From a virus, in IMG/VR virus record IMGVR_UViG_3300035698_026482, positions 62,001-126,000 of that record: DNA of 64,000 nucleotides. The stretch is one strand, 5' to 3'. Of the stretch, positions 11,322 through 40,449 are shown one piece after another. Each line of letters starts with the position of its first letter. The first letter of the stretch is position 1. The notes beneath the pieces are model-generated. The model saw nothing but the letters and a program-made list of their open reading frames with translations, did not search any database and was not told where the DNA came from. A program made the translations under genes and the position numbers.

Positions 11322-13109
11322 TTATGCCAATTCAAACTTGGCGACGCCGCAATCATAAATGCGAAAAAGCCCACGTGATAACGCAACGTCACGTTCTGTT
11401 AGTCCGTTCTTTTTGTCTGCTACACATCTTGATCGATGAAGTCGTTGACCACCGCCGTGTGTCCAAAAGAAACCGTATTTTGTCTCATCAAGCTTCTTGA
11501 ACCCAACGTTAACATATCCTGCACCTTCGCCATGTCTGAGATGCACATACGTCATCAATTTTGGCTTACTGGTGTATATGGCTTCGATCTTGGCACGTTT
11601 TATTAACTTGCCTAGCCCTCCTCGTACAGAGACATTTAATAGCGATGCAAATCGTTTAACTTCAAGATGATCTGGAAAGCGTTGGCCCTGTCTTGGCTTG
11701 CCTAGCGTCATAACCGATACTAGACAATGTTCCTCTGAAGTGAATAGACCAAAGCGCAGTGAACATGGCGTCGATCCGTCAAGATGATTGGTGTTTAAAA
11801 ATTCTTTAGCGATTTCTGTTGATATTGGCGCCACATAACATTTGCGCGCGTTTGCTTTTGCTAGTGGTTTGCCTAGTCGTCCTCTTATCATTGATTCAAC
11901 GATGTCACGCTTTTGTAACCACTCGTCTTCAAACACGTGAAATACGTTGATACCCGCATTTCTGCATTCGTCTAGTTTTGTTCGCATATAATCCTGGCCA
12001 CAACCGTTAGCTTCACAATGCCACCATAGTCCATTATATTCGACGCCAAAATTCATTGACGGTACCCATATATCAATTTCCTTACCACCTAGCACGGATC
12101 GATTATTGCGCTCAACATCAAATCCAAGCGATTCAATAAATGCGGCAACTTCTTCTTCACCAATTGATCTGCCCGTAGGATAACATTTTTGACATCGACC
12201 GATATCACGATCTAGATTCTCAAGCGTCACATCAAATTCAATTTGACATTGTTGACATCTTGTTTTTAGAGGCGTCTTGCGTGTTTCATATTCTTCGTAC
12301 GACGATAATACAACGTATTCTTGAGGTTTTCGCGTTGTTCTAATCGTGAATTCTTCTAGCGACAGGCGCTTGTAGTCAGCCATCTTCTTTTTGCTTTCGT
12401 CTGTATGACTCTTTCCGAAAAAGGGATTGCCAGTGTCGGCATATCGTTTTGATTGTTCGACAAGGTATTCGATACCGTCGCTTTTTGTCTTTCCGTTATA
12501 TGGATTTGCAATGGCGCCGCCTTTTTTGCCACCTTCGCTTTCGGCAACATGTGCGTGGTTCTTACAGTATTTCTTGAATTTGGTTACATCAAGCCGTGTA
12601 AACTCATTACATCCATCAAAATGACATACGGGCCTAACACCTCTATAATGATGCTTCGTGATATACCCGTCGAATTTCATGCCGTGTGTGTTACCTAGAT
12701 GTACAGATAGAGGATGGTGTCCCACAAATCCATCACACCCGCATTCTTTACATGTTATATTTTCAATTGCCAAAGTCTGCTGACGGCGCCTGTGCTGGGT
12801 GGCCGACTTTTTTGTTCTACGATTATGTCCAGCAGCAAATGCTGCGTAATGTCCACCTGGATTCCATCTGGTAAACGCTGCATTATTCACATCCATAATG
12901 CACTTGGGACATGCGCAGCCAGGTATCTTACCACCAAAAATGATATTGCGATGATATTGCTCCCGCTTTATTCCGTCATGAAGTGAGCGCAAATGATCTG
13001 CTAGTGTCTTGCCGTATTTTCCATTTTTTGCAGGTGGAATGCTTTCACTGCACAAATGACATCTTGATTCGAATTCATCGCCAAAGTTATCATATGCAGG
13101 ATGTTTCAT
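11322..13109 (-). CDS. Vsr-like (EDxHD type) homing endonuclease with zinc fingers and NUMOD3
   Basis: 595 residues. The N-terminus has C2H2-like finger CHLC...HLRSLH (17-44), CACPKC (65-70), CKEC...HLGNTH (120-142) and a C/H cluster at 162-185, all suited to sequence-specific DNA binding. A NUMOD3-type motif NPFFGKSHTDESKKKM is at 228-243, then two Cys pairs (CQQC 285-288, CQKC 306-309). The nuclease domain (about 316-412) resembles very-short-patch-repair endonucleases: GGKEIDIWVPSMNFGVEYNG then LWWHCE, and VFHVFEDEW. A C-terminal domain (421-595) follows the pattern seen in phage HEGs of this family (ARKC, NHLDG, GGLGKLI). It sits between the capsid gene and 10940-11308. A second homologue is at 38749-40449. 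Confidence 0.87.
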   Translation of the reverse strand: MKHPAYDNFGDEFESRCHLCSESIPPAKNGKYGKTLADHLRSLHDGIKREQYHRNIIFGGKIPGCACPKCIMDVNNAAFTRWNPGGHYAAFAAGHNRRTKKSATQHRRRQQTLAIENITCKECGCDGFVGHHPLSVHLGNTHGMKFDGYITKHHYRGVRPVCHFDGCNEFTRLDVTKFKKYCKNHAHVAESEGGKKGGAIANPYNGKTKSDGIEYLVEQSKRYADTGNPFFGKSHTDESKKKMADYKRLSLEEFTIRTTRKPQEYVVLSSYEEYETRKTPLKTRCQQCQIEFDVTLENLDRDIGRCQKCYPTGRSIGEEEVAAFIESLGFDVERNNRSVLGGKEIDIWVPSMNFGVEYNGLWWHCEANGCGQDYMRTKLDECRNAGINVFHVFEDEWLQKRDIVESMIRGRLGKPLAKANARKCYVAPISTEIAKEFLNTNHLDGSTPCSLRFGLFTSEEHCLVSVMTLGKPRQGQRFPDHLEVKRFASLLNVSVRGGLGKLIKRAKIEAIYTSKPKLMTYVHLRHGEGAGYVNVGFKKLDETKYGFFWTHGGGQRLHRSRCVADKKNGLTERDVALSRGLFRIYDCGVAKFELA

Positions 13110-22092: not shown

Positions 22093-25000
22093 TTAATCAT
22101 CCGATAGATCTAAATCAAAATCGATGGTAAAATCAGACCCATCGTTCGTATCATTTTCATCGTGCTTGCCAAGCTTTGACTCATCAGAACCTTCAATTAG
22201 TTGATTAACTAGATCAGTGGTTGAATCTGATCCCTCAGTGAGAAGTCCCTCTTCCTCATCACCTTCACGCATTCTGGCTAATTCCGGCGCGAACTCTTCT
22301 TCTAATTGATTAAGCACTGACTGTAGCGCCCCTGTAATACGAGGGGCAGCTGGGGCCCTATCATCCTCGGCACCAATAAGGTAACCATCAAGCTCTGCAA
22401 GGGCAGATAATTGTTGCTCTAATAGACGTCGAGCCGGATCATTGGGATGCATTTGCTCAAGCTTTATGCTGAGGGCGTTCTTGAACGGGCTTTCAAGTGG
22501 ATTACCAAATGGATCTTGTTGCGGATCGTCAATTATATTAACCATCTTTCCAAAATCGGGCGTAACCATTGCCTCAGCGCCATGCCGGCGATGACGTGAA
22601 CGATTATATTGCTTCTTCTTCATTTCTGGACTTACGTTAATAGGCCTGTCGTCATCGCTATCCGTCAATGAAGGTTTTTTCTTTTTATCTGTTTTTAGCG
22701 GATCCTGTTCGCCTAGAATCGATCCTGCCTTAACTTGACCAGCAAAAAGATCTTCTTCATCATCGCCACCAGCATCATCAACGGCTTCATCATCGCCACC
22801 GAGATCATCGCCGCCAAAATCGTCACCGCCGAGATCATCACCGCCTTCGACGTCATCTAAACCATCTTCTGGCATATCGAAATTGCCGCCGTCAAAGCCT
22901 CCACTCCCGGCGCCACCGAAGCCAACGCTTTCCGGAACTGCGCCTTCGCTGATCTTTGTAAGGGCCGCTCGACGCTGAATATCATCAACGACTTCTTCTG
23001 CAAGCTCCTTCTGTTGCTGTTCAGACATATCCATAAGCGTTCTCAACAGGTATTGCTGTGAGAATACTTGGCCGTCGGCGATGCCCAATGCGTTGCCAAT
23101 CACTTCAAATTTGCGATTGTATAGCTCTAGTTTCTGTTGCTGCGCAATTGTAGATGGGTTATTGAGGCGCAGCTCGAAATCAAACATATCGTCGCCCTCA
23201 TATCCGTTAAGGAAGAGGTGCACGTATGCAAGCATTTGTAGTTCTGCGGTAATAACCTTTTGAATCGCCTGTACGGTTCTGGAAAAACGAATGTCTTCGG
23301 CCGCAAGCGTGGCTTTCGATGATAGCATCTCGTCGTATCCCAAGTATGCTCTAGGGATCTTTAATGCGGCGAAAAGCTTCTTTTGAATATACTCAACGTC
23401 CTCGGTGGCCGAGACATGTTGACCGCCTGCGAGGGTCGTGATCTCTGTACCGCTTTCTGTGCCACGCCGAGGTACAAAATAATCTTCGTCAACAGAGTTG
23501 TGTAAGTATATGAAATCATTACATTTTTCAATATCATCCACACACTCGCTAGAGGGCCCTGCAGCAAAATTATGCCACTTTGTAATTGTGACGCAGCCGG
23601 TGTCTTCACGATGTTCGAGCCTTTCAACTCTTACGACCCTATGATTCTTATATCCTTCTGACGCTGTGTATCTAGCATTTCCAGGCATATATGTCTGTCT
23701 AAATTCATCAATATCGCAATCTGACTCACGAATTAATGTTTCAAGCATATGTCGAGACATATCGAATTGTCGTAAAACATCTGCACGGCGACAATTTTCT
23801 GTTGCTTCACAAAATTTTGTAATCTCCTTAATTTCAAATCGATTGCTTAACCAAGATTTTTTAAGATCAGATAGTGCTCGAGGAAAACCGGCTGATTTTA
23901 GTCTTGCCTGTAATGACGATCGTGTAAATCCTACTTTTCCATTTTTGAATATTGGATTTGTATTGTGCAGATGTTTCCCAAACTTTTTATGCGCATTGAG
24001 CAACGCAAGTAGTGTCTTTTCTTTCACAGAATATCCTGTTTTGTCGAGAATCTCAAAATAAGCAGAAATAAAACGATTGTTGTCAAATTGCAGTGTTAAT
24101 TTGTCGATTCGTTTTTTTCGAATATCAACATCTTTCCACAGATTAACAAACGTTTTAGGTGTAATAGACCCCTCTTCCCATGTTTTTTTCATCCTGCGGG
24201 CTGATGCTTTGCGACCCGCGGGGGATCTGTTGCGTTCTGCGGCAAGCTCACCATGCAAGCGCATATGGTCACGCCATGTCATAGTCTGCAAATTTTGAGG
24301 ATTATTGTTCATCTTATCAAAATCTATATGATGAACGATCTTGCCTTTTATCGTTTCAAATCCTTCTGTTTCAATAACATTATTGCGGTGTGTCGACACA
24401 TATTTTTTTGCAAAGGGATCATAGAATTTTTCATATCCCGTGATTTTATGACCATCCTCTTTTGATGTACGCGCAAGATATAGTGGCATTAACGGATCTC
24501 CTGCAACTAAATCCTCTGCCTTTCGATATGATCCATCACGAAGCATGAATCGATGATCAGGTGTGCAATCATACCATGTGCCGGTGTCAATATGAACACG
24601 AACAAGTTCTGCATTTTTACGCGTAATACCCGCCCATTCAATTTTGCCCGGGACAATCTTTTTATTCTCAATGTCAACAGAATAAACCCATTGATCCTTT
24701 TTTCCATCATTCCATTCATCAATCAATGTGCCAAGGGTTATTACCCTGCCATCCATCAATTTTATTAATGATTTCAAGCTGTTACAAAGCGGATTGTAGC
24801 GAAGATCAACGCGGCCTGTCGAACGATCAATGATTGTGTTAGAGCGCAGCTTAGCCTCCTGCTGCTTCATGTAGTTTTCGACTTCTTCTGGTGGCACACC
24901 ACCGACGTCAACATAAAAAATGCGACGTTCAGGTGAGCGTACAACGCGATAAACCATCATGGCATCCTCAATGAGGATTAGCTGCCGCCAAATTCTGCGA

Positions 25001-27150
25001 GCAGGCTCAATAACTGATGAACCATATGGTAGAAATGCATCGTTACCAAGCATCCTGAAGTGTGTCATTTGCCAGTTTTCTAAGGCGACATTACCCTGCG
25101 TGACCCAACGGAATCTAATGGCTTGAGGATCTTCTGGATCAAAGCCTTCCTCTCGTTCGATTTCATTTACAGGTACTGGAAAAGCTTGCAATACGCCGAA
25201 ACCTGGCGCAACATCATTGAACAGAAAGAAGTCACCATACTTGACAAGATTGCGGACCCACATGCGCAGGTTGAAATCAACGTTTAGCGTGTCGAAGAAT
25301 AGTTCTTCTAGTAATGATCGGATCTTACGATTGTCACTAAAGATGTGAAGGACGTTTCCCTTTTCATCTTGGCTAACTGATTCGTCTGCATAAATGTCAA
25401 GCGCGGCGCTGATCTCCGGTGTATATTCCATTTCGGAATTGTGTACAATAACGCCACTATTATCTTTTAGGATAATGGAGAAGTTATGATGTACTGGTAC
25501 TTCTATATCATAAACTGGTACAATATCGCCTGTTAGGCGTACCGCAACAATTTTGTGATTTTGATAACGTTCTGAAAAATCACCAAAATGCTTGTACCCT
25601 TCCCATTGAAGGCGCTTCCTAACTTTCCACGTGCTAGCATCAAGCTCTGAAGCTAGTTCGGCAAGCGTCATACCTTTTGTATAGTGATTAGCAATGCGCT
25701 GAAACGTTAATGTTTTATCGGCGTTGCCATTTTGAAGCTGAACCTGATCAGTTCTTCCCTTATTAAATCGACCGGGTTTAAATGTTTTATTGTATTCAAT
25801 AACACCATCGAGGTCCCTTCCAAAAAGATGGTTACCGTGTTGTGCACGCTTTTTCTGATTTAAATCATTATTTTCTCGAAGGTCTCCACCCGGAAGCCAG
25901 CGACTAGACATTATTTTTGATTGTTTCGCACGCTCAGCAGGATCTTCAAATCGTTTATTATTGATTTTAGCATGTAACGAAAGATGATCATGCGCAGTCA
26001 TAACACGCAAATTTTTATGAGTATTGTTATGAGGGTTAAAATCAACATGATGTACATGCATGTCACTTGGTTTTCCAAGCTGTTGACCAGACATCGACTC
26101 GGCAACAAGAACGTGTTCAGGCCTAAATTTACCAGTCCGTGGCGATCTTAACCAACGATATGTGCGATCACTTTTACCTTTTGATCCAAATTCCTTACGG
26201 GTAAATGGCATAATGGCCATATCTGGCTTAAGCTCGTCTACTCGTCTATATTCACCGCCACGAAGAAGGAACGGATGATTGCCAGTCGCACGAATAATCG
26301 ATCCGTCATCAAATTCAACTTCATAAACCCGGCGTTCGCCAGTCTTCCACGCTTTGGTAGGCGTGGAACTTACCAAATCGCCTGTTGCGTGATTATATGA
26401 AAAAACATCAATCTCTTCGCCATCGTTGAATCGCCTTACAAATTCATCAATACGAATTGAACCTTCTTCAGTATTTGTTGCAATTAATGTTTCGCTTGCG
26501 AGGCAAAAGTCGGCATAACGTGAGTTATGCACGATTATCGAATCAGTTGCAAAATTTTCATGGCCATCGACGGTTAGATCACCACAAACTTGCGTCGTGC
26601 AAGGTTCAACTGAAATAATCGTGTGATTTTGATACTCCGTCTTGAACTGTTTTCGATAAAACGGCATCATCGATTCACCAGGTCTTAAATCTTGTGCTTC
26701 TCGATAAGTTCCGTCACGAAGCATACATTCATGATCAGGCGTGCAAATTAACGTGTTACCGTCGTCGAACGTAACCTTTACGGTTTCTTTAATGCCGGAA
26801 CTGCGCGGGTGATGGGCCCATGCGGGAACAATTTGTTTTTTCTTATGATCATATGCATAAACAAGAAACTTTTCGCCCGAGTCGCCGAACTCAGCGATCA
26901 GTTGTTCAAGCGTTTTAAACTTCTCGGGGCCAGGAATAGCGATTTGTGTACTCAATGATACGCACAAACGATCGTATTGACCATATGCATTGATTGCGTT
27001 GCTATAGATAAAACTTTGTGTCTTACTAAAAAGCTCTAACGCTGTTGAAGTTGGAGGTTGTCTATAGTCTCGTACACGCCTCTTTACCGAAGTGGGAGAC
27101 TTGAAGATTCTACTGACCCGTGCGTACCAATTATTTTTAGCTTTGCTCAT
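22093..27150 (-). CDS. gp20: Portal vertex protein (gp20-like) precursor with three inteins
   Basis: 1685 residues, of which 933 are intein. The joined exteins give about 752 residues (T4 gp20 is 524). Extein blocks are unmistakable: DRL/SRYADF/SEMEYTPEISAALDIYADES, then YGSSVIEPARRIWRQLILIEDAMMVYRVVRSPERRIFYVDVG, NTIIDRSTGRVDLRYNPL/SVDEDYFVPRRG, EITTLAGGQH and IQKKLFAALKIPRAYLGYDE. The dodecameric portal nucleates prohead assembly and is the DNA channel. Inteins occupy residues 63-209, 216-571 and 789-1218, each beginning with Cys, ending His-Asn and followed by Ser. The C-terminal extension beyond T4 is rich in Asp/Gly (GGDDLGGDDFGG). Unspliced precursor could not be functional, so portal supply depends on three splicing events. 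Confidence 0.95.
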   Translation of the reverse strand: MSKAKNNWYARVSRIFKSPTSVKRRVRDYRQPPTSTALELFSKTQSFIYSNAINAYGQYDRLCVSLSTQIAIPGPEKFKTLEQLIAEFGDSGEKFLVYAYDHKKKQIVPAWAHHPRSSGIKETVKVTFDDGNTLICTPDHECMLRDGTYREAQDLRPGESMMPFYRKQFKTEYQNHTIISVEPCTTQVCGDLTVDGHENFATDSIIVHNSRYADFCLASETLIATNTEEGSIRIDEFVRRFNDGEEIDVFSYNHATGDLVSSTPTKAWKTGERRVYEVEFDDGSIIRATGNHPFLLRGGEYRRVDELKPDMAIMPFTRKEFGSKGKSDRTYRWLRSPRTGKFRPEHVLVAESMSGQQLGKPSDMHVHHVDFNPHNNTHKNLRVMTAHDHLSLHAKINNKRFEDPAERAKQSKIMSSRWLPGGDLRENNDLNQKKRAQHGNHLFGRDLDGVIEYNKTFKPGRFNKGRTDQVQLQNGNADKTLTFQRIANHYTKGMTLAELASELDASTWKVRKRLQWEGYKHFGDFSERYQNHKIVAVRLTGDIVPVYDIEVPVHHNFSIILKDNSGVIVHNSEMEYTPEISAALDIYADESVSQDEKGNVLHIFSDNRKIRSLLEELFFDTLNVDFNLRMWVRNLVKYGDFFLFNDVAPGFGVLQAFPVPVNEIEREEGFDPEDPQAIRFRWVTQGNVALENWQMTHFRMLGNDAFLPYGSSVIEPARRIWRQLILIEDAMMVYRVVRSPERRIFYVDVGGVPPEEVENYMKQQEAKLRSNTIIDRSTGRVDLRYNPLCNSLKSLIKLMDGRVITLGTLIDEWNDGKKDQWVYSVDIENKKIVPGKIEWAGITRKNAELVRVHIDTGTWYDCTPDHRFMLRDGSYRKAEDLVAGDPLMPLYLARTSKEDGHKITGYEKFYDPFAKKYVSTHRNNVIETEGFETIKGKIVHHIDFDKMNNNPQNLQTMTWRDHMRLHGELAAERNRSPAGRKASARRMKKTWEEGSITPKTFVNLWKDVDIRKKRIDKLTLQFDNNRFISAYFEILDKTGYSVKEKTLLALLNAHKKFGKHLHNTNPIFKNGKVGFTRSSLQARLKSAGFPRALSDLKKSWLSNRFEIKEITKFCEATENCRRADVLRQFDMSRHMLETLIRESDCDIDEFRQTYMPGNARYTASEGYKNHRVVRVERLEHREDTGCVTITKWHNFAAGPSSECVDDIEKCNDFIYLHNSVDEDYFVPRRGTESGTEITTLAGGQHVSATEDVEYIQKKLFAALKIPRAYLGYDEMLSSKATLAAEDIRFSRTVQAIQKVITAELQMLAYVHLFLNGYEGDDMFDFELRLNNPSTIAQQQKLELYNRKFEVIGNALGIADGQVFSQQYLLRTLMDMSEQQQKELAEEVVDDIQRRAALTKISEGAVPESVGFGGAGSGGFDGGNFDMPEDGLDDVEGGDDLGGDDFGGDDLGGDDEAVDDAGGDDEEDLFAGQVKAGSILGEQDPLKTDKKKKPSLTDSDDDRPINVSPEMKKKQYNRSRHRRHGAEAMVTPDFGKMVNIIDDPQQDPFGNPLESPFKNALSIKLEQMHPNDPARRLLEQQLSALAELDGYLIGAEDDRAPAAPRITGALQSVLNQLEEEFAPELARMREGDEEEGLLTEGSDSTTDLVNQLIEGSDESKLGKHDENDTNDGSDFTIDFDLDLSDD
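23497..24786 (-). mobile_element. Portal intein 3 (HNH endonuclease-bearing, 430 aa)
   Basis: Residues 789-1218 of the portal precursor. The first residue is Cys789; CTPDHRFMLRDGSYRKAEDL is the B-block region; IYLHN ends the intein and Ser1219 is the +1 residue. An HNH-type nuclease sits in the middle: KIVHHIDFDKMNNNPQNLQTM (937-957). The C-terminal block HNFAAG is separated from LHN by an unusual insert of about 15 residues (PSSECVDDIEKCNDF). It is inserted between RYNPL and SVDEDYFVPRR, a highly conserved portal site matching the T4 'SMTEDYWLQRR' region. Confidence 0.9.
25438..26505 (-). mobile_element. Portal intein 2 (HNH endonuclease-bearing, 356 aa)
   Basis: Residues 216-571 of the portal precursor. 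It begins CLASETLI, has ATGNHPFLLRGGEYRRVDEL as B block, and ends with HHNFSIIL...GVIVHN before Ser572. The nuclease has MHVHHVDFNPHNNTHKNLRVM (364-384), an HNH motif. A NUMOD/helix-turn-helix-like segment MTLAELASELDASTWKVRKR (494-513) probably binds DNA. It is inserted after RYADF, only six extein residues downstream of intein 1. Confidence 0.92.
26524..26964 (-). other. Portal intein 1 (mini-intein, 147 aa, no endonuclease)
   Basis: Residues 63-209. It begins Cys63 (CVSLSTQI), carries the B-block CTPDHECMLRDGTYREAQDL and ends GHENFATDSIIVHN before Ser210. The splicing blocks are present, but the stretch where inteins 2 and 3 hold their HNH nuclease is missing: MMPFYRKQFKTEYQNHTIISV joins the two halves directly. 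It strongly resembles intein 3 in the N-terminal half and shares the Y-x-NH-(I/V) motif before the last block with both others. Confidence 0.9.
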
Positions 27151-27192: not shown

Positions 27193-30087
27193 TCAGTTGA
27201 GCCAGTTTAAGCCGCCTAATCGCCGACGAATATGTTCTGGTAATCTTGCACCGTAATCTTTTTCAGCTTCGGGGTTTGTTGATTGGCGCTCTATTAACTC
27301 TTTTTCAGTCTTTGGTAGGTTGATTTTATCGAGCTCGGAAAACGCGCTCAAATATTGTGAAGATACAATCCCGCTATTTTTGCCTGGTGACTCATAAATT
27401 CCAGATGATTTATTTGTGCCATTCAGCATTGCATATGCCATTGCACGTGCAGATTCGTCAATATTTCCTAGCTTAAGAATTCTGACGCCGATTGCATAGC
27501 TCATTATGAGGTCATCGTGTTCGCCTCTAGAAGCTGCAGCCCTACCTTCCGCCTCAACGTTTTTACCTGGTTGCCAGACAAAGCTTTGCAGCTGATGAAT
27601 GAATCTTGCAGAATAGCTGCGAATCTGGCGATTACGAATAATGCCCTCCATATTCGATAGAAGTTCATTTCTTTTTTTCTTGCCCTGGTTGTTATATCCA
27701 GGAATATCATCAGGACCAGGATAAAAATTGGGGTTTCGTTCTTGTTGCTCGTAATACATCGACGGATAATCACGATGTTGTAGGACCGTGATCGTGTGAT
27801 GCCCGTATGTATTTTGCTCAGGTGCCATTAGGGCGTTGTTAAAGTGCCGTCCCCAATGATCCAGCAACTTACCAAAGCCATCTGGACGAATATGCCCCAT
27901 AAATTCTGCGACGACTTCGCCCTCATTGCTGTCAAACACATGAAATGTTGAATAATCACCGCCGCCATCGCCCCTTGCAACGTCTGCCGATATGATGTAA
28001 TGATGTCCCTGGACAGGTTCTTTCCAAATCCACACTTGACCCGCTGGTCCATCACGCCTAATTGGTGGTATAGCCATCGATTTCAGCCAAGCAATATCAT
28101 CACCTGACACGTATGTATCGCCAGAGCCTAGGAAGTCACAGTTGTGAACAATTAAAGATTCAACGATATATGTGTGATCGTCTTTTACTTCAAAGTTGTA
28201 AACGAAGCCATTATATTCTGACGGTGTTATTTGCACACGTCCTGCAAACATTTCATTAGATGTTGTCTTAACCAGCTTCGTTCTGCTACCCGCTTTTGTT
28301 TGATGCTTCTTTTGTGCAAGTATTTCGTGCATTTTCATGCCATCAACATTATTCAATTCTAGACACCATGGTTGATTTTTTACATGATGAATGCGCGGAT
28401 AACATCTAAACATTGACATCAATGTTCGCATTTGATATAGCAGCTTGCTCGAAGCAGAAGCTATTACAATTTTGTTTTCTGGAAAATGCGTCCCATCACC
28501 GTCTGCCCAACCTGCGATTAGTCCTCTTACAAACTCAACGTTTGTCTTGAGTAACAACTGCATATCGATTGATTTCTCAGTAGCATATGATCCCTTAATG
28601 AAGTATCTACATAATGCAGCAATGTAGTAATTGTGTGTTTGCAGATTAAAACTATTTGATTCGTTTGGTCGAAAATATTCTCTTACTCGGGTACCCAACG
28701 ATTTCATAAAGTTGCTCGCCCAGCCACCGTGTGTTGTCTGTTCATCTGCGTGAAATGCAAACTGTGTACACCACCCCGTCTTGTTTGCGCGTGTTATAGA
28801 CCCTTCTGCAAGGTACAATCCTATAAAGCGACCTAAGTCATAATCAATACCAATAAAACGTTGTGTGTGACCACGCTGATTTTCATAATGCGTTTTGTCT
28901 TTTGTTACAGCAGATGAAGGGTATAATTTAGATAGATCGATTTCGTGTAGTTCATTACTGAACTGAGTCTCTTTAAGTACAGGCATTAGCGCACATGCAA
29001 ATCTCGCACCGCGTGATGATTTTTTGTACTTCTCTAGTTTCGTATTTAGCGAATCAATTGATTCAAATTTCCAATCTAAATCTCCGCTTAAATCTGCCGT
29101 TCTAACGATACCGGCGCCTGAAGACATTAATATTGGGTGATTTCCTGTAACCGTAATATTAGCTTTACGGTTGCCAGGTACTGACACATCCCATACTGTT
29201 TCGCAAGGTTTTATCCTTCGCTTGTTTACCTTAACAACAGGGCGATAGTGTCCAGTATGTGTCAAGACGTTGTCGCCAACAGCAATATCCTCAACAAACC
29301 TATATCCTGTATCGGTGACAATCCTGGCGCCCTCGCCGACGCAGTCATACTCTTGTGCATAGTATCTTTTACTATACATCTTGCGCGTTTCTTCTTCCCA
29401 CTTTTCATCGCGCTCAGGATGGACATCCCATTTCAATTCAAACGGAACAAAATCATTCTTTTTTGAAACTGCGTCAACGTATGTTTTGTAAAAAAGGCCC
29501 GCAGCACCATTTGGTGATGAAAGCATGACTGCCGATCCACCTGCAGAAATGGATGGAAGAAGGGCAGCCCAGATTTTTTCAAATCCTTCAATGTGCGCAG
29601 CCTCATCAATGATGATAAATGAAGCCGCAATACCACGTCCCGCAGACTCAGAGCGCGGAATCGCGCGAATCTGTGAACCATTGGCAAACTTTATATGCTG
29701 TCGTGAATCGCCAGTCTTGGGTTTTAGAATAAGCCACTTTGGAAGTGATGCAAATGCAACCTTCACCTTATCCATAAACTCAACAGCTGTCGCTAGTTTT
29801 GTAGCGATACAGATGATGTTTTTATCTCGATAAAATATTGCAAGCCATAACGCGTATGCGGCAGTGGTTGTTGAAATACCCAGCTGACGTGACTTAAGAA
29901 TAATATTGAAACGTTTTTTTACTAACGAATCAATTACATCATCCTGAAAATCAAACGTGTTAAACGCAATTGTGCCACGCTGCGGATGCTGAATTTTTAC
30001 GTATCGATTGATAAAATACTTGGGATCTTTACCACACTTCAGAATCTCTTTTACTTGGTGATCCTTACTAAGGATTGGTGAAGCCAC
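27193..30087 (-). CDS. gp17: Terminase large subunit (gp17-like) precursor with one intein
   Basis: 964 residues, 401 of them intein; the spliced product is about 563 residues (T4 gp17 is 610). ATPase: Walker A-type KSRQLGISTTTA (65-76), Walker B FIIIDEAAH (157-165), coupling motif SSPNG (190-194). Nuclease: ISADVARGDGGGDYSTFHVFD after the intein, APEQNTYGHH, and GEHDDLIMSYAIG near the C-terminus, supplying the acidic residues for headful cutting. It pumps DNA through the portal encoded next. The start is GTG 30087, sharing one base with the TAG of the preceding gene (TAGTG). The intein splits QEYD from CDFLGSGDTYVSG, at the ATPase-nuclease boundary region. Confidence 0.95.
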   Translation of the reverse strand: MASPILSKDHQVKEILKCGKDPKYFINRYVKIQHPQRGTIAFNTFDFQDDVIDSLVKKRFNIILKSRQLGISTTTAAYALWLAIFYRDKNIICIATKLATAVEFMDKVKVAFASLPKWLILKPKTGDSRQHIKFANGSQIRAIPRSESAGRGIAASFIIIDEAAHIEGFEKIWAALLPSISAGGSAVMLSSPNGAAGLFYKTYVDAVSKKNDFVPFELKWDVHPERDEKWEEETRKMYSKRYYAQEYDCVGEGARIVTDTGYRFVEDIAVGDNVLTHTGHYRPVVKVNKRRIKPCETVWDVSVPGNRKANITVTGNHPILMSSGAGIVRTADLSGDLDWKFESIDSLNTKLEKYKKSSRGARFACALMPVLKETQFSNELHEIDLSKLYPSSAVTKDKTHYENQRGHTQRFIGIDYDLGRFIGLYLAEGSITRANKTGWCTQFAFHADEQTTHGGWASNFMKSLGTRVREYFRPNESNSFNLQTHNYYIAALCRYFIKGSYATEKSIDMQLLLKTNVEFVRGLIAGWADGDGTHFPENKIVIASASSKLLYQMRTLMSMFRCYPRIHHVKNQPWCLELNNVDGMKMHEILAQKKHQTKAGSRTKLVKTTSNEMFAGRVQITPSEYNGFVYNFEVKDDHTYIVESLIVHNCDFLGSGDTYVSGDDIAWLKSMAIPPIRRDGPAGQVWIWKEPVQGHHYIISADVARGDGGGDYSTFHVFDSNEGEVVAEFMGHIRPDGFGKLLDHWGRHFNNALMAPEQNTYGHHTITVLQHRDYPSMYYEQQERNPNFYPGPDDIPGYNNQGKKKRNELLSNMEGIIRNRQIRSYSARFIHQLQSFVWQPGKNVEAEGRAAASRGEHDDLIMSYAIGVRILKLGNIDESARAMAYAMLNGTNKSSGIYESPGKNSGIVSSQYLSAFSELDKINLPKTEKELIERQSTNPEAEKDYGARLPEHIRRRLGGLNWLN
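28141..29343 (-). mobile_element. Terminase intein with LAGLIDADG endonuclease (401 aa)
   Basis: Residues 249-649 of the terminase precursor. Begins CVGEGARIVTDTG; B block ITVTGNHPILMSSG; ends HTYIVESLIVHN and is followed by Cys650. Two LAGLIDADG helices are visible: LGRFIGLYLAEGS (418-430) and FVRGLIAGWADGDGT (519-533), so it is of a different endonuclease class from the portal inteins. Removal gives the continuous conserved sequence YAQEYD-CDFLGSGDT. Confidence 0.95.
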
Positions 30088-30794: not shown

Positions 30795-31071
30795 GTGTCA
30801 AACTTCTACTGCTAAATGCGCAAGCATAAAAAATATTGGTGTCGTAGTTTCGTCTAAATGAATGGCGCCCCATTTTATCAGGATTATGATATCGAAAGCA
30901 CCATCTAAGTGAGTCAACATTACGCGAAGTAAGTGCCTTAATTTTCTTCATGTGTCCGAAAAATCCAAGCGTATTCTGCGAAGATTCAACGTATGCATAA
31001 TCTTTTTCCCGCACCCACATAAGTGGCCATGGACGTGCGCTCGGGTGAGGCGCATTTCTTGCTTCAAACAT
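30781..31071 (-). CDS. Unknown small basic protein
   Basis: 96 residues, aromatic-rich and basic (RPWPLMWVREKDYAYVESSQ, RWCFRYHNPDKMGRHSFRR). The ATG overlaps the last bases of the Mre11-Rad50 fusion gene by eight bases, and its end overlaps the zinc-ribbon gene start, so it is embedded in a tightly packed operon. No family recognised. Confidence 0.55.
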   Translation of the reverse strand: MFEARNAPHPSARPWPLMWVREKDYAYVESSQNTLGFFGHMKKIKALTSRNVDSLRWCFRYHNPDKMGRHSFRRNYDTNIFYACAFSSRSLTHDRP

Positions 31072-34000
31072 GCGAAACCTTAGCGTCCTTGCCTATGCGA
31101 GCTATATCGATTACGTTGTCAACGACGTCCTTAAGCGTATCGATATGCGTGATGATAATAATATTCTTAAACCATTGTGTAAGTGATCTTAACAATTGAC
31201 CACACGCCTCGATATTATTATCATCAAGCTCGCTAAATCCCTCATCAATCATCAACATGTCTGTCTTCGGAAGGCTTGATACGTTGATTAGTGCAACGCG
31301 AATAGCGATTGATGCAACCATCTTCTCCATACCGCTACCTAGTTCGATAATACGACGACTATCGCCGTAATTGATGTAAACATCCATCGATGTAGAATCT
31401 TCAGGTAATTCAAGCTCGATTGTGAACTTTACAATGCCATTCAAAATCGAAGCAATTTCGTTATTGATAACAGGTACCATATGACGTAACAATTGAGACG
31501 GGATTCCCTTTTTCGAAGTAGCCTTAATTAATAATTCGTATGCTCGCCAAGATTTAGCAAGTTCAAGATATTCGATGTGCTCACGTTTCAATGTTGCGGT
31601 GAGCTCTTGTAGCTGTCCCAGTTTTTGAAGCTTTAATGAGCGTTCGCCGTCAAGATCATTAATAACAGATTCAATATCGTCAATATCGTCCTTCAATATT
31701 CTCTGATCATGCGAATATGTTGCACGTTCAGCCTTCTTGAATTTTTGTTCTATATCGGCCAAGGTGCCGCGTTCACGATCTAATGAAACTGAGATGTCGT
31801 TGTTATCACGTTCAATACTGTCTTGTTGATGTTGTAGACGAGCGAGCGATAGGTTATATTGATCCTCTTTTGCAATAATACGTCGATATCGCTTAAGCCG
31901 TAAAGCAGATCCGTCCTGCATTAGCGAATCAAATACGGTCTTCTTACCGCTGAGATCATTTAGTAGTTCATCAACGAGTTGTTGTAGATCAGGCAGGTCT
32001 AGTTTATCCTGATGTGAATCCTTAATGAATTTGCAGCTAGGAAAGCTATCACCACAAGGAACCTCAGCAAGTTTAAGTGTTGATTTGCGCTTACGATCCA
32101 GTCGCTGTTTTTGTTCGGTCAGACGTTGTTCAAGTGCGAAGATCCATTCAGACAGATCCTTGCGTTTTTCTTCACGCTCAAGATGCGATTTAAGTGAAAA
32201 ATTTTGCTTAACACGCGAAACAATTTCGATTCTGTGCTCGGCTGCTTCCACACGTTTTTCCAATGCGTCTAGCTGAATTACGCTTTGCTTCATTTTGCTT
32301 TCAAGTTCTGCAATGCGCAGCTTTTGTTTGCTAATATCAGCTTCCGTTACAAGCTCACCATCCCCAAATCCAGCAAGCTTTGTGCGCTTATCTTGTAACG
32401 TATTGCGAGATGTATTAAGCTCTGCTTCAAGTTCATGTATACGCGCTGCTGTATTTTGGGTTTCGTCGATAAGGCGGGTCTTCATGCCTTCCCAGTCACG
32501 CTCGGGCATGTCTTTGATTTTCCCCTTAAGCTCAAGCGAATCAGCTTTTACTTTTTCATGCATCCAATCAAAGATATACATGTCAAGAAAACGTGACAAA
32601 ATTGCCTTACGTTGCGAGGCGCCCTCTGAAATGAATGACTTGAGACCCCCTTGAACAGCGAGTGATGTCAACATGAAATCTTCTGGTGATCCAATCGACC
32701 GACGAATTCTCTTTTCTGTTTCGCGTCTTTGTGTACCATTAAGATTCACGTTGGCGTCTGGCTGATAAAAGTCTAATGACGTCGTCGAAGTAATCTGTCC
32801 CTTGCTTGTTGTTTGTTTGTTGGAGCTTCGCTTGATCTCATGTCGACGACCGTTGACAGTAAGCAATGCCGTCGCTTCACATGAATTCTTACGAATATTG
32901 ATAACGTGCTGGTTTTTCATTGGACCGCGATCGGTCGAGTTGAAAAGCGCATACATCATTGTTCCAATAATCGATGACTTGCCCATTGCGTTGGCAGCGA
33001 AAATGCCGGTGATACCAGATAACGACGCAAAATCGATTTCGTTGTCTTCGCCGTAAGCAAACGTATTGCTAAAATTTAATTTCTCTAGCGTCCATTTCGT
33101 ATGACGTGCTACATCATCGCTTGCGGCGCACTGCGTGATATATGAAGAGACAAATCGTTCTAAATCTTTCCACGTATCATCTGATATTTCGACATCATAA
33201 AAATCCCTAAGCAACTTCATATGTGTCTTGGGATCACGAAGATCATGAGACATCTCCATAACGATATTAGAGCGAGTTGATGTATAATCATCAATCACTT
33301 CAACCTTTGGAACAACTTCCTTGGCATTTTTATTATCACGAAGCTTCTGGCTTAGCGAGCGCCAGTCTGCTTGTGCAATTGTTCCATGCGATCGCACGCG
33401 AAATCGAACGCCATCAGGATATTGCTTTGCATCATCAATAAGTGCATCTACGTCGCCAGTCCAGTCAAGCGTTACAAATCTACTCGGGTTCGGAAGCGTG
33501 ATAAAATCAACAGTAAAATCATCTTTTGACTTGATTTGCCAGAATAAAAACCCGTGGTCTGGATCTTCTGCATAGTTTTGTTGAATAGTTGATCCGCAGT
33601 ACGCCAACCAAGGACGACGTTCACCGTCAATACAATCACGATATGCAAGAAATTGCATTTTATGAATGTCGCCAAGAAGGCCAAAGTCATAGTCTTCAAA
33701 AAAGTCGACGCCTACCTCACCCTTCAGTTCAAAATCAGCTTCAGTTTTAGATCCCCAAACACCGCCATGAAAGACAGCTAGATTAATTTCGCCAGGAACA
33801 GGCTTAACATCTGCCCAACCTTCTTCATCAAAACACGAAAAGACGCACCAGTTAAAGCCTGGTACTGTCGCAGGATATGTGCCAGAGTCCTTAAACAGTG
33901 TGATATTAGGATTGTTGATTAGCTTTAGAATTGGTGAAATAGCATCCTGACGTCCCTTATTCATAAGGTTACCGTCATGATTGCCTAATGTAACAACCAC

Positions 34001-34228
34001 ATGCGCAATGTCCGCCAAGCTGTTAAACCACCATCCCAGAAGATCAACAATCTCCGGACTAATGTTTTGTGTTTTCGTATGAAAAATGTCCCCTCCGATA
34101 TAGATGACATCCGGTTGTAATTCTGTTGCCTTCTTGAAGAAGGCTTCAAAAACGCTTTTAAACTCCCCGTGTCGTGTCAATCCACGAAAGTGAACATCTG
34201 CGATATGTGCAATTTTAAATGCGGACAC
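31064..34228 (-). CDS. gp47-gp46: Fused Mre11-Rad50 (gp47-gp46) recombination nuclease
   Basis: 1054 residues carrying both subunits of the T4 gp46/47 (SbcCD) end-resection complex. Residues 1-330 are Mre11-type: HIADVHF (8-14), GGDIFH (45-50), LGNHDGN (81-87), FHGG (153-156), LGDIHK (185-190), CGSTIQQNY (211-219). Residues about 380-1054 are Rad50-type: Walker A GIFAANAMGKSSI (408-420), long coiled coil (about 560-900), signature LGSGMEKMVA (963-972), Walker B MLMIDEGFSELD (991-1002) and ITHID. A C725-x6-C732 pair lies near the coil centre where the zinc hook is expected. Such proteins process DNA ends for recombination-dependent replication. There is no stop or frameshift at the junction. 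Confidence 0.92.
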   Translation of the reverse strand: MSAFKIAHIADVHFRGLTRHGEFKSVFEAFFKKATELQPDVIYIGGDIFHTKTQNISPEIVDLLGWWFNSLADIAHVVVTLGNHDGNLMNKGRQDAISPILKLINNPNITLFKDSGTYPATVPGFNWCVFSCFDEEGWADVKPVPGEINLAVFHGGVWGSKTEADFELKGEVGVDFFEDYDFGLLGDIHKMQFLAYRDCIDGERRPWLAYCGSTIQQNYAEDPDHGFLFWQIKSKDDFTVDFITLPNPSRFVTLDWTGDVDALIDDAKQYPDGVRFRVRSHGTIAQADWRSLSQKLRDNKNAKEVVPKVEVIDDYTSTRSNIVMEMSHDLRDPKTHMKLLRDFYDVEISDDTWKDLERFVSSYITQCAASDDVARHTKWTLEKLNFSNTFAYGEDNEIDFASLSGITGIFAANAMGKSSIIGTMMYALFNSTDRGPMKNQHVINIRKNSCEATALLTVNGRRHEIKRSSNKQTTSKGQITSTTSLDFYQPDANVNLNGTQRRETEKRIRRSIGSPEDFMLTSLAVQGGLKSFISEGASQRKAILSRFLDMYIFDWMHEKVKADSLELKGKIKDMPERDWEGMKTRLIDETQNTAARIHELEAELNTSRNTLQDKRTKLAGFGDGELVTEADISKQKLRIAELESKMKQSVIQLDALEKRVEAAEHRIEIVSRVKQNFSLKSHLEREEKRKDLSEWIFALEQRLTEQKQRLDRKRKSTLKLAEVPCGDSFPSCKFIKDSHQDKLDLPDLQQLVDELLNDLSGKKTVFDSLMQDGSALRLKRYRRIIAKEDQYNLSLARLQHQQDSIERDNNDISVSLDRERGTLADIEQKFKKAERATYSHDQRILKDDIDDIESVINDLDGERSLKLQKLGQLQELTATLKREHIEYLELAKSWRAYELLIKATSKKGIPSQLLRHMVPVINNEIASILNGIVKFTIELELPEDSTSMDVYINYGDSRRIIELGSGMEKMVASIAIRVALINVSSLPKTDMLMIDEGFSELDDNNIEACGQLLRSLTQWFKNIIIITHIDTLKDVVDNVIDIARIGKDAKVSHV

Positions 34229-38748: not shown

Positions 38749-40449
38749 TCATACATCAATCGTATACACCGTGTTAGTATCGCCCCAAACTCGGCAAACA
38801 CGTGCCTGTTGGGCAACGGTTGCTTGTGACATATCTTTTTTTGCCTTGATATGAAAACGATCAAGCCTTGTAACAAAGTCTGTCCACCAGAATCGAGGCT
38901 GCGTTTCATGTATTAGCTTATATCCTGAAGACGGATACCCGTCACCTGAGGAGATCCTCATATCGGCATATGTGATTAATCCTATTCTTTCATTTTCGCG
39001 AGCTATTTTTAGTGCATGCTTCGTTAGCTTAGACAGGCCACCAATAACTGCACAATCACGCTTAATCGCAAACCTAGCAACTTCGTAACGTTTTTCATAT
39101 ATCTTTTTTTGTGGGGAACGTAGCGATATCGCACAAACAAGTTCATCATCATATACTAGTCCATACGCAGATTTAGCACGAATGTCTCCTGCAATATGAT
39201 TCTCGTCGAAGAAAGAGCGACGCTGTTCTCTTGTTAGTTTCACCAATTCACACTTTCTAGCAAAGATTTTTCTATCAGCATCGCCAAGTCGATATCTTAT
39301 CATCGAGGTAATAAGATCTTTTTTGTCGCGCCACTCGTCTTCAAAAATTGTAATGACACGATATCCAAGCTTTTCAGCTAGCTTACGTTTTAGCTGTGTT
39401 CGCCTACTGTCTGCTTCAACAGCTTCACTATGCCAGTATAATCCATGATATTCGATTGCTAATTTGTTATTGGGAAATACAATGTCAAGTTCATATGGGC
39501 GAATTAGCTGCCAATTAGATACTTCAGGTTTATATCCAAGTGCTAAGAACGTATTGGCGATATCTTGTTGTCCAATAGAAACAGACTGCTGTCTATCACA
39601 TAACATGCATCGCGGCGCTAATAACACGCTGCTAAGAACCCTTGCATCACTCTTACCACATTGTGCGCAGGCTACGTTAACAGGCATCATTATTCCTGTA
39701 TATGTCTCAAGCGTAACTGTCGGGGTTATGGCAATTGTTTCGTTCTCGGCAACGATTGCTAATCTTTTTGATAGCTCTTCATATGAAAGTCGATTACTGT
39801 CGCTTATTTTTTTCGCAGTAAGTCTAAGTTGAGCTTGACCTTCTTTCGTTTTATAGAACTTTGATTGCTCTTGTCCACGAGTCTTATGAAAATCTATACC
39901 GTCAGGGGAAGAAGCCCATTTTGCAACGCTAATAGCAACCTGCTGCTTTTTTAATTTGCCAACATCCGAGTCCCAAAATTGCTTAAGAGTAAGACTTCGA
40001 CGCTTATTAATTGCGCGGCCGTATTCAGTTTTGTATAGCTCCTTACACGCCTTTGAACGCTTTGCTATTAGCGTTTGACCTTCAGCTGTCTTATAAAATT
40101 GACGCATAGCGAAAGAGCGCTTTTTGGCGGCCAGCTTTACAGCGTTAGAGCCACTCAGCGCGCTTGATAGATTAAGACGATGATTAGCAGTTAAAGGCTT
40201 CCCTTTACGTCGTTTCGAAATACTTTCCCGCATGTCAGTAGTGTAATGGCCACTGACCAATGACATGAATTTGATGCCATTATGAAATCTTGTATACTGT
40301 CCACATCCACACAAGCACATTGGGCGTATGCCGCTGTGCACATGCTTAACAACATAATCTTCATAGGAAATGTCTAGGTGACATTTACGTAGATGATGCT
40401 TAAGGGCACAACGTGATTTCGTTAATAACCCGCATTCCAAACATTTCAT
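38749..40449 (-). CDS. Vsr-like (EDxHD type) homing endonuclease with zinc finger and tandem repeats
   Basis: 566 residues, homologous in its C-terminal half to the HEG at 11322-13109. N-terminal zinc finger MKCLECG...HHLRKCH (1-24) and Cys cluster PMCLCGCGQYTRF (43-55). Residues about 115-215 hold repeated modules of 20-27 residues containing FYKTxxG or similar, likely DNA contacts. A second Cys pair set is at 261-284 (CAQC, CMLC). The nuclease (about 292-395) has YELDIVFPNNKLAIEYHG then LYWHSE, and VITIFEDEW. The C-terminal domain has ARKCELVKL, NHIAG, GGLSKL and TYADMR. It sits between two tail genes and follows tandem hairpins. Confidence 0.87.
   Translation of the reverse strand: MKCLECGLLTKSRCALKHHLRKCHLDISYEDYVVKHVHSGIRPMCLCGCGQYTRFHNGIKFMSLVSGHYTTDMRESISKRRKGKPLTANHRLNLSSALSGSNAVKLAAKKRSFAMRQFYKTAEGQTLIAKRSKACKELYKTEYGRAINKRRSLTLKQFWDSDVGKLKKQQVAISVAKWASSPDGIDFHKTRGQEQSKFYKTKEGQAQLRLTAKKISDSNRLSYEELSKRLAIVAENETIAITPTVTLETYTGIMMPVNVACAQCGKSDARVLSSVLLAPRCMLCDRQQSVSIGQQDIANTFLALGYKPEVSNWQLIRPYELDIVFPNNKLAIEYHGLYWHSEAVEADSRRTQLKRKLAEKLGYRVITIFEDEWRDKKDLITSMIRYRLGDADRKIFARKCELVKLTREQRRSFFDENHIAGDIRAKSAYGLVYDDELVCAISLRSPQKKIYEKRYEVARFAIKRDCAVIGGLSKLTKHALKIARENERIGLITYADMRISSGDGYPSSGYKLIHETQPRFWWTDFVTRLDRFHIKAKKDMSQATVAQQARVCRVWGDTNTVYTIDV

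Follow-up and report, generated by a model that had tools for sequence, protein, structure and literature searches.

The gene described here raises the question of whether a phage portal protein can be encoded with three inteins in a single chain and, if so, how the inteins came to be there and how the protein would be freed of them. We analyzed a 64-kb window (the whole stretch of DNA under study, 64,000 nucleotides, positions 62001-126000 of the record) from an uncultured T4-like virus with a record of 182,840 bp. A sequence-only reading had claimed that a gp20-like portal gene in this window holds three complete inteins, and searches with Pfam and NCBIfam together with alignments bore this out, boundaries included (Table 1). 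The portal ORF begins with ATG and is uninterrupted by stops. Its Portal_T4 match, which is split in two, scored 220.6 bits against a curated cut-off of 22.9, and this score and the likeness to the solved T4 gp20 identify the protein as a T4-type gp20. Pfam also found three stretches of Intein_splicing and two of HNH_3, and the NCBIfam model intein_Nterm gave three matches along the ORF. The inteins make up 933 of the 1685 residues of the precursor (55%), in agreement with the earlier statement that over half of the translated protein is intein, and the joined extein of 752 residues that had been proposed was reproduced exactly. A simple promoter and terminator scan gave signal no better than chance.

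Table 1. Features of the portal gene in the window (splice sites in spliced numbering; a slash marks the site)
Feature	Position	Strand	Remark
Portal (gp20-type) precursor ORF, 1685 aa	22093..27150	-	Portal_T4 PF07230 4e-65
N-extein, portal residues 1-62, ending ...GQYDRL	26965..27150	-	
Intein 1 (I1), 147 aa, precursor aa 63-209, mini-intein without endonuclease	26524..26964	-	site L62/S63
Extein hexapeptide SRYADF, spacer between I1 and I2, 18 bp	26506..26523	-	
Intein 2 (I2), 356 aa, precursor aa 216-571, HNH-bearing	25438..26505	-	site F68/S69
HNH motif of I2, HHVDFNPHNNTHKNL	26008..26052	-	
Middle extein, spliced portal residues 69-285	24787..25437	-	
Intein 3 (I3), 430 aa, precursor aa 789-1218, HNH-bearing	23497..24786	-	site L285/S286
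HNH motif of I3, HHIDFDKMNNNPQNL	24289..24333	-	
C-extein, spliced residues 286-752, D/G-rich tail and stop	22093..23496	-	matches T4 gp20, PDB 3ja7

I1, I2 and I3 each have Cys1, the block B motif TxxH, a terminal His-Asn and Ser+1, which includes the Cys start, His-Asn end and Ser+1 read earlier from the sequence, and the residues of all three are those of class 1 inteins. Both I1 and I2 end in VHN/S. The HNH pattern HH...N...NL is present in I2 and I3; an HNH motif was looked for in I1 and was absent. Block F of I3 holds a Cys (TGCVTI) where most inteins have Asp, and the spacing between its blocks F and G is long, features that the site-285 lineage keeps and that make the splicing efficiency of I3 uncertain. 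A class 3 mechanism was ruled out by Cys1 in all three inteins, and a split-intein reading by their being contiguous within one ORF.

The joined extein aligned without gaps at the junctions to the portals of Microcystis phage Mel-JY01, Flavobacterium phage immuto and Rhodothermus phage RM378, with identities of 27-36%, and it matched the solved T4 gp20 (PDB 3ja7, 1.4e-26) over a region that covers the third site. Many intein-free marine portals on IMG/VR contigs, in which the sites are empty, are 60-71% identical to it. In these alignments, joining the exteins restores conserved portal sequence at each of the three sites, as had been claimed. The earlier reading would have failed if the segments were ordinary portal domains in homologues; they are wholly missing there, and because the joined flanks match homologues that are without the inserts, this possibility was rejected. 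Tyr65, which lies in the SRYADF hexapeptide, is invariant in a four-sequence portal alignment. The tryptic peptides predicted across the spliced site-68 and site-285 junctions are YADFSEMEYTPEISAALDIYADESVSQDEK and YNPLSVDEDYFVPR, respectively. A scan of genome contigs also found two portals with no intein, in MAGs that carry the labels Halobacteriovorax and Flavobacteriales; we did not accept them as evidence on the host.

Structure models agreed with the assignment, more clearly for the tandem inteins than for the splicing part of I3. In a model of I1-SRYADF-I2 both Hint domains were fairly confident (pLDDT mostly 70-90), and its best Foldseek matches in the PDB were mini-inteins, with TMt up to 0.88 (Ssp DnaB); I1 matched the PDB intein 4o1r and I2 matched 19 PDB intein chains. 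The I3 model was weak overall (mean pLDDT 50.5) and poor outside the splicing part, for which the best PDB folds were inteins at a TMt of about 0.6. The reading that we prefer, and consider very probable, is that a T4-type portal was invaded at three sites by independently acquired class 1 inteins, each excising itself, with I2 and I3 probably homing and I1 probably co-converted. Once translated, each intein would fold as a Hint domain, cut itself out and ligate its flanks, so that in vivo the 1685-aa precursor would mature to a 752-aa portal able to form the ring. Autocatalytic class 1 splicing is likely at each site, in either order, because every intein has its own flanks.

The closeness of I1 and I2 suggests a variant of this scheme, in which the N-terminal half of I1 would pair with the C-terminal half of I2 and produce a minor portal form without SRYADF (mispaired junction DRL-SEMEY; predicted peptide LSEMEYTPEISAALDIYADESVSQDEK). 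In favour of such pairing, the two inteins are homologous, share the same VHN/S ending and are six residues apart. However, they are just 34% identical, the tandem model fits a pair of distinct Hint domains, and the product should be defective because the invariant Tyr65 lies in the skipped hexapeptide. We regard mispairing as unlikely and retain the separate excision of I1 and I2.

We then surveyed portal inteins in other viruses. IMG/VR virus contigs were scanned with portal sequences and intein junction patterns, inserts were positioned on the spliced portal by alignment permitting intein-length gaps, and 216 portal ORFs were kept after removal of duplicates (contigs are labelled L plus a number). 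Scans with whole I3 and whole I2 sequences gave only 1 and 0 loci, respectively, probably because inteins diverge fast, and it was the junction patterns that succeeded. About ten recurrent sites were found, namely, in spliced numbering with the number of inteins in brackets, 62 (5), 68 (5), 73 (65), 87 (5), 132 (6), 208 (4), 221 (2), 233 (1), 285 (8) and 344 (15); these counts are not prevalences, because the sample was partly picked by intein junctions. A single case at site 310 and the site-208 placement in L279 may be misplaced, and inserts placed near residue 455 are artefacts of the C-terminal tail. In this biased sample, 118 of the 194 full-span portal ORFs are intein-free. Three inteins in one portal had been called very rare in the earlier reading, a view that did not hold, since public virus contigs contain no fewer than eight further portal ORFs with three or more: three are present in L011, L178, L180, L208, L232, L327 and L328 as in the window, and at least four in L177. 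In L178, sites 62, 68 and 73, which lie within 11 portal residues, are each occupied by an intein. The tandem layout at sites 62 and 68 recurs in L178, L180 and L179/L181, which come from separate samples, and the spacer, SRY(A/S)DF, recurs in L178-L181. The portal inteins are not chance matches, since one frame passes three curated intein models and the same three sites are occupied in independent contigs. A search of isolated phages with I3 and a site-73 intein returned distant intein/HNH matches only; these portal inteins were found in none of the isolates.

The census also brought out inteins of other types. The partial portal ORF of L177 (L177:3-5618, 1872 aa) has inteins at 87, 132, 285 and 344, the contig beginning within the first. 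The site-132 inteins, in the L177, L184, L208, L230, L232 and L262 portals, sit at RNL/CKYG, RNT/CKYG or RNT/CKFG and look class 3-like, because their first residue is Pro, the penultimate residue is not His, F:4 is Cys, and B:12 is Trp or Tyr; L268 has one class 3-like intein at site 285. The last residue is Gln (FQ or YQ) rather than Asn in the inteins at site 68 in L178 and L181 and at site 285 in L328 and L201.

Inteins are not confined to the portal gene in this virus, and at least nine with both ends, some of them split, were found in the 183-kb record. The TerL ORF adjoining the portal gene (27193-30087, minus strand) has a 401-aa LAGLIDADG intein at 28141-29343 (EYD/C...VHN/C). The PolIII-alpha (DnaE-like) gene (G000:C1:2482-11894; L003) is broken by inteins into several ORFs, with one contiguous intein (GRG/C...VHN/S), one split intein (GHM/CITGD ... 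VVHN/CFQES) and more unpaired intein halves with endonuclease-like ORFs in between. A class II-type RNR gene (G000:C1:19333-26990; L004) contains one contiguous HNH intein and one split intein, the halves of which flank a TnsA-like endonuclease ORF, and a DnaB-like helicase has an intein at the Walker A motif. Within the window there are also two large free-standing homing-endonuclease-like ORFs (phrog_3339; 11322-13109 and 38749-40449, minus strand) and a 1054-aa ORF (31064-34228, minus strand) with a metallophosphatase and an SMC-type ATPase, resembling a fused SbcD-SbcC (T4 gp47-gp46).

In T4, head assembly begins from the portal. The inteins might therefore be kept for control of head assembly, slow or conditional splicing delaying portal formation, and conditional splicing has a reported precedent in some inteins, e.g. 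mycobacterial DnaB (PMC6195587). However, most of the sampled portals, close relatives included, do without inteins, the occupancy of sites among portals is patchy, and the same virus has inteins in its polymerase, RNR, helicase and terminase genes too. We therefore consider such a role quite unlikely, and the preferred reading remains that of three invading elements.

The origin of these elements was examined in a tree of 75 intein splicing domains, in which the inteins of portals cluster according to where they are inserted (the site label changes 18 times; the minimum is 14, and shuffled labels give a mean of 49.8). I1 lies inside the site-62 clade (support 100/99), I2 has the site-68 intein of L266 as its sister (100/99), and I3 belongs to a clade of five site-285 inteins, the others being those of L184, L177, L232 and L327 (100/94). 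A portal tree made by a quick method scatters the same sites, with 4 changes for 5 site-62 rows, 7 for 8 site-285 rows and 14 for 15 site-344 rows. The L266 portal groups with those of L178-L180, yet its site-68 intein belongs to the lineage of the window, and the site-68 inteins of L178-L180 form a different lineage. Site-wise grouping of the inteins together with scattered sites on the portal tree is a signature of site-specific horizontal movement, although loss is also possible, and on these sequence comparisons the portal inteins appear to have moved horizontally, site by site. The layout common to all three could also suggest that one intein was duplicated inside the portal gene, and the splicing parts of I1 are indeed 34-37% identical to those of I2 and I3. 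I1 is, however, 62-64% identical to the same-site inteins of L180 and L328, and because the tree places each intein, with strong support, beside same-site inteins of other viruses and not beside its two neighbours, we rejected duplication as very unlikely. That the gene is an assembly chimera or dead is scarcely credible, since, although the virus is known as a metagenome contig, the single 1685-aa frame is open with catalytic residues intact, the terminase-portal-protease-major head protein order is undisturbed around it, and L178, L180 and L179/L181 repeat the tandem layout.

Under the reading of independent invasions, the putative HNH endonucleases of I2 and I3 would cleave portal genes that lack the intein, each at its own site, and then be copied in, i.e., they would home. 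I1, having lost its endonuclease, lies 18 bp from I2 and probably now travels with it by co-conversion. The site-62 inteins of L180 and L328 retain the HNH motif; those without it, in the window, L178 and L181, all sit beside an HNH-bearing neighbour at site 68 (L179, near-identical to L181, was left out of this comparison). L328, with no neighbour at 68, has kept its HNH, and L180 has kept it too with a neighbour present. When all sites are pooled, lengths below 280 aa are seen in 6 of the 13 inteins that have a neighbour no more than 15 residues away and in 7 of the 100 that have none so close (Fisher p 0.0008), in a small comparison of related sequences with a cut-off set after the data had been viewed; the hitch-hiking of I1 is for these reasons a lead. 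Work of 2023 on neighbouring inteins asked whether an endonuclease can hitch-hike on another in a multi-intein gene and decay (PMC10643990), and the window portal and its relatives show the pattern predicted, with an intein that has no endonuclease lying 18 bp away from one that has an HNH. We put at about even the chances that gp20-type portal genes of T4-like viruses are an intein hotspot of some ten sites in which inteins accumulate in tandem, 5-6 codons apart, and, as they hitch-hike on a neighbour, lose their endonucleases. If this is true, the portal gene is a natural test of co-homing and of side-by-side self-splicing domains. The DNA gate of the virion, needed in twelve copies, would rely on three splicing events per chain; each splicing failure should spoil a subunit, and for this reason portal inteins offer a strong test of ideas on how parasitic splicing elements survive in genes that are essential. 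Tools that splice several inteins in one chain could also naturally be developed from the tandem inteins.

Split inteins in fractured genes were reportedly described by Dassa et al. in 2009. Like such genes, the NrdJ and DnaE-like polymerase genes of the window virus have split inteins with endonuclease ORFs between the halves, whereas the portal inteins are contiguous. Intein-interrupted RNR genes occur in Global Ocean Sampling data (PMC3653736). Haloarchaeal polB and mcm genes hold several inteins each, with three large ones in Haloquadratum walsbyi polB and four neighbouring sites in mcm (PMC10643990), and they resemble the portal gene in that a single essential gene holds several inteins, each at a conserved site of its own. 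They are, however, cellular replication genes, whereas the portal gene encodes a virion structural protein and has HNH endonucleases and two inteins six residues apart. The crAss-like phages are similar to the window virus in that their genomes are dense in self-splicing elements, rich in inteins and introns, with a reported maximum of 3 inteins per genome (alongside 14 introns) and one TerL with two inteins (PMC7886860); here, a single gene has three inteins, and the genome as a whole has no fewer than nine. Inteins also occur in portal proteins of mycobacteriophages, which are different phages, and the part of that report available to us contains no multi-intein portal (PMC5050341); the window portal differs in being of the gp20 type and in holding three inteins, and about ten insertion sites are found among its relatives. 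Portal inteins (PMC5050341) and three-intein genes (PMC10643990) are each already known, and in the open-licence literature, with most subscription papers outside it, we found no report combining the two. The portal of LR756508.1 (L011), an uncultured huge phage of 484 kb, is also gp20-type with three inteins, but at sites 208, 221 and 346, and its unannotated record illustrates how easily intein-bearing portals are missed in annotation. The three-intein arrangement of the window portal is real and striking, but it recurs in other viruses and is one instance of an intein hotspot.
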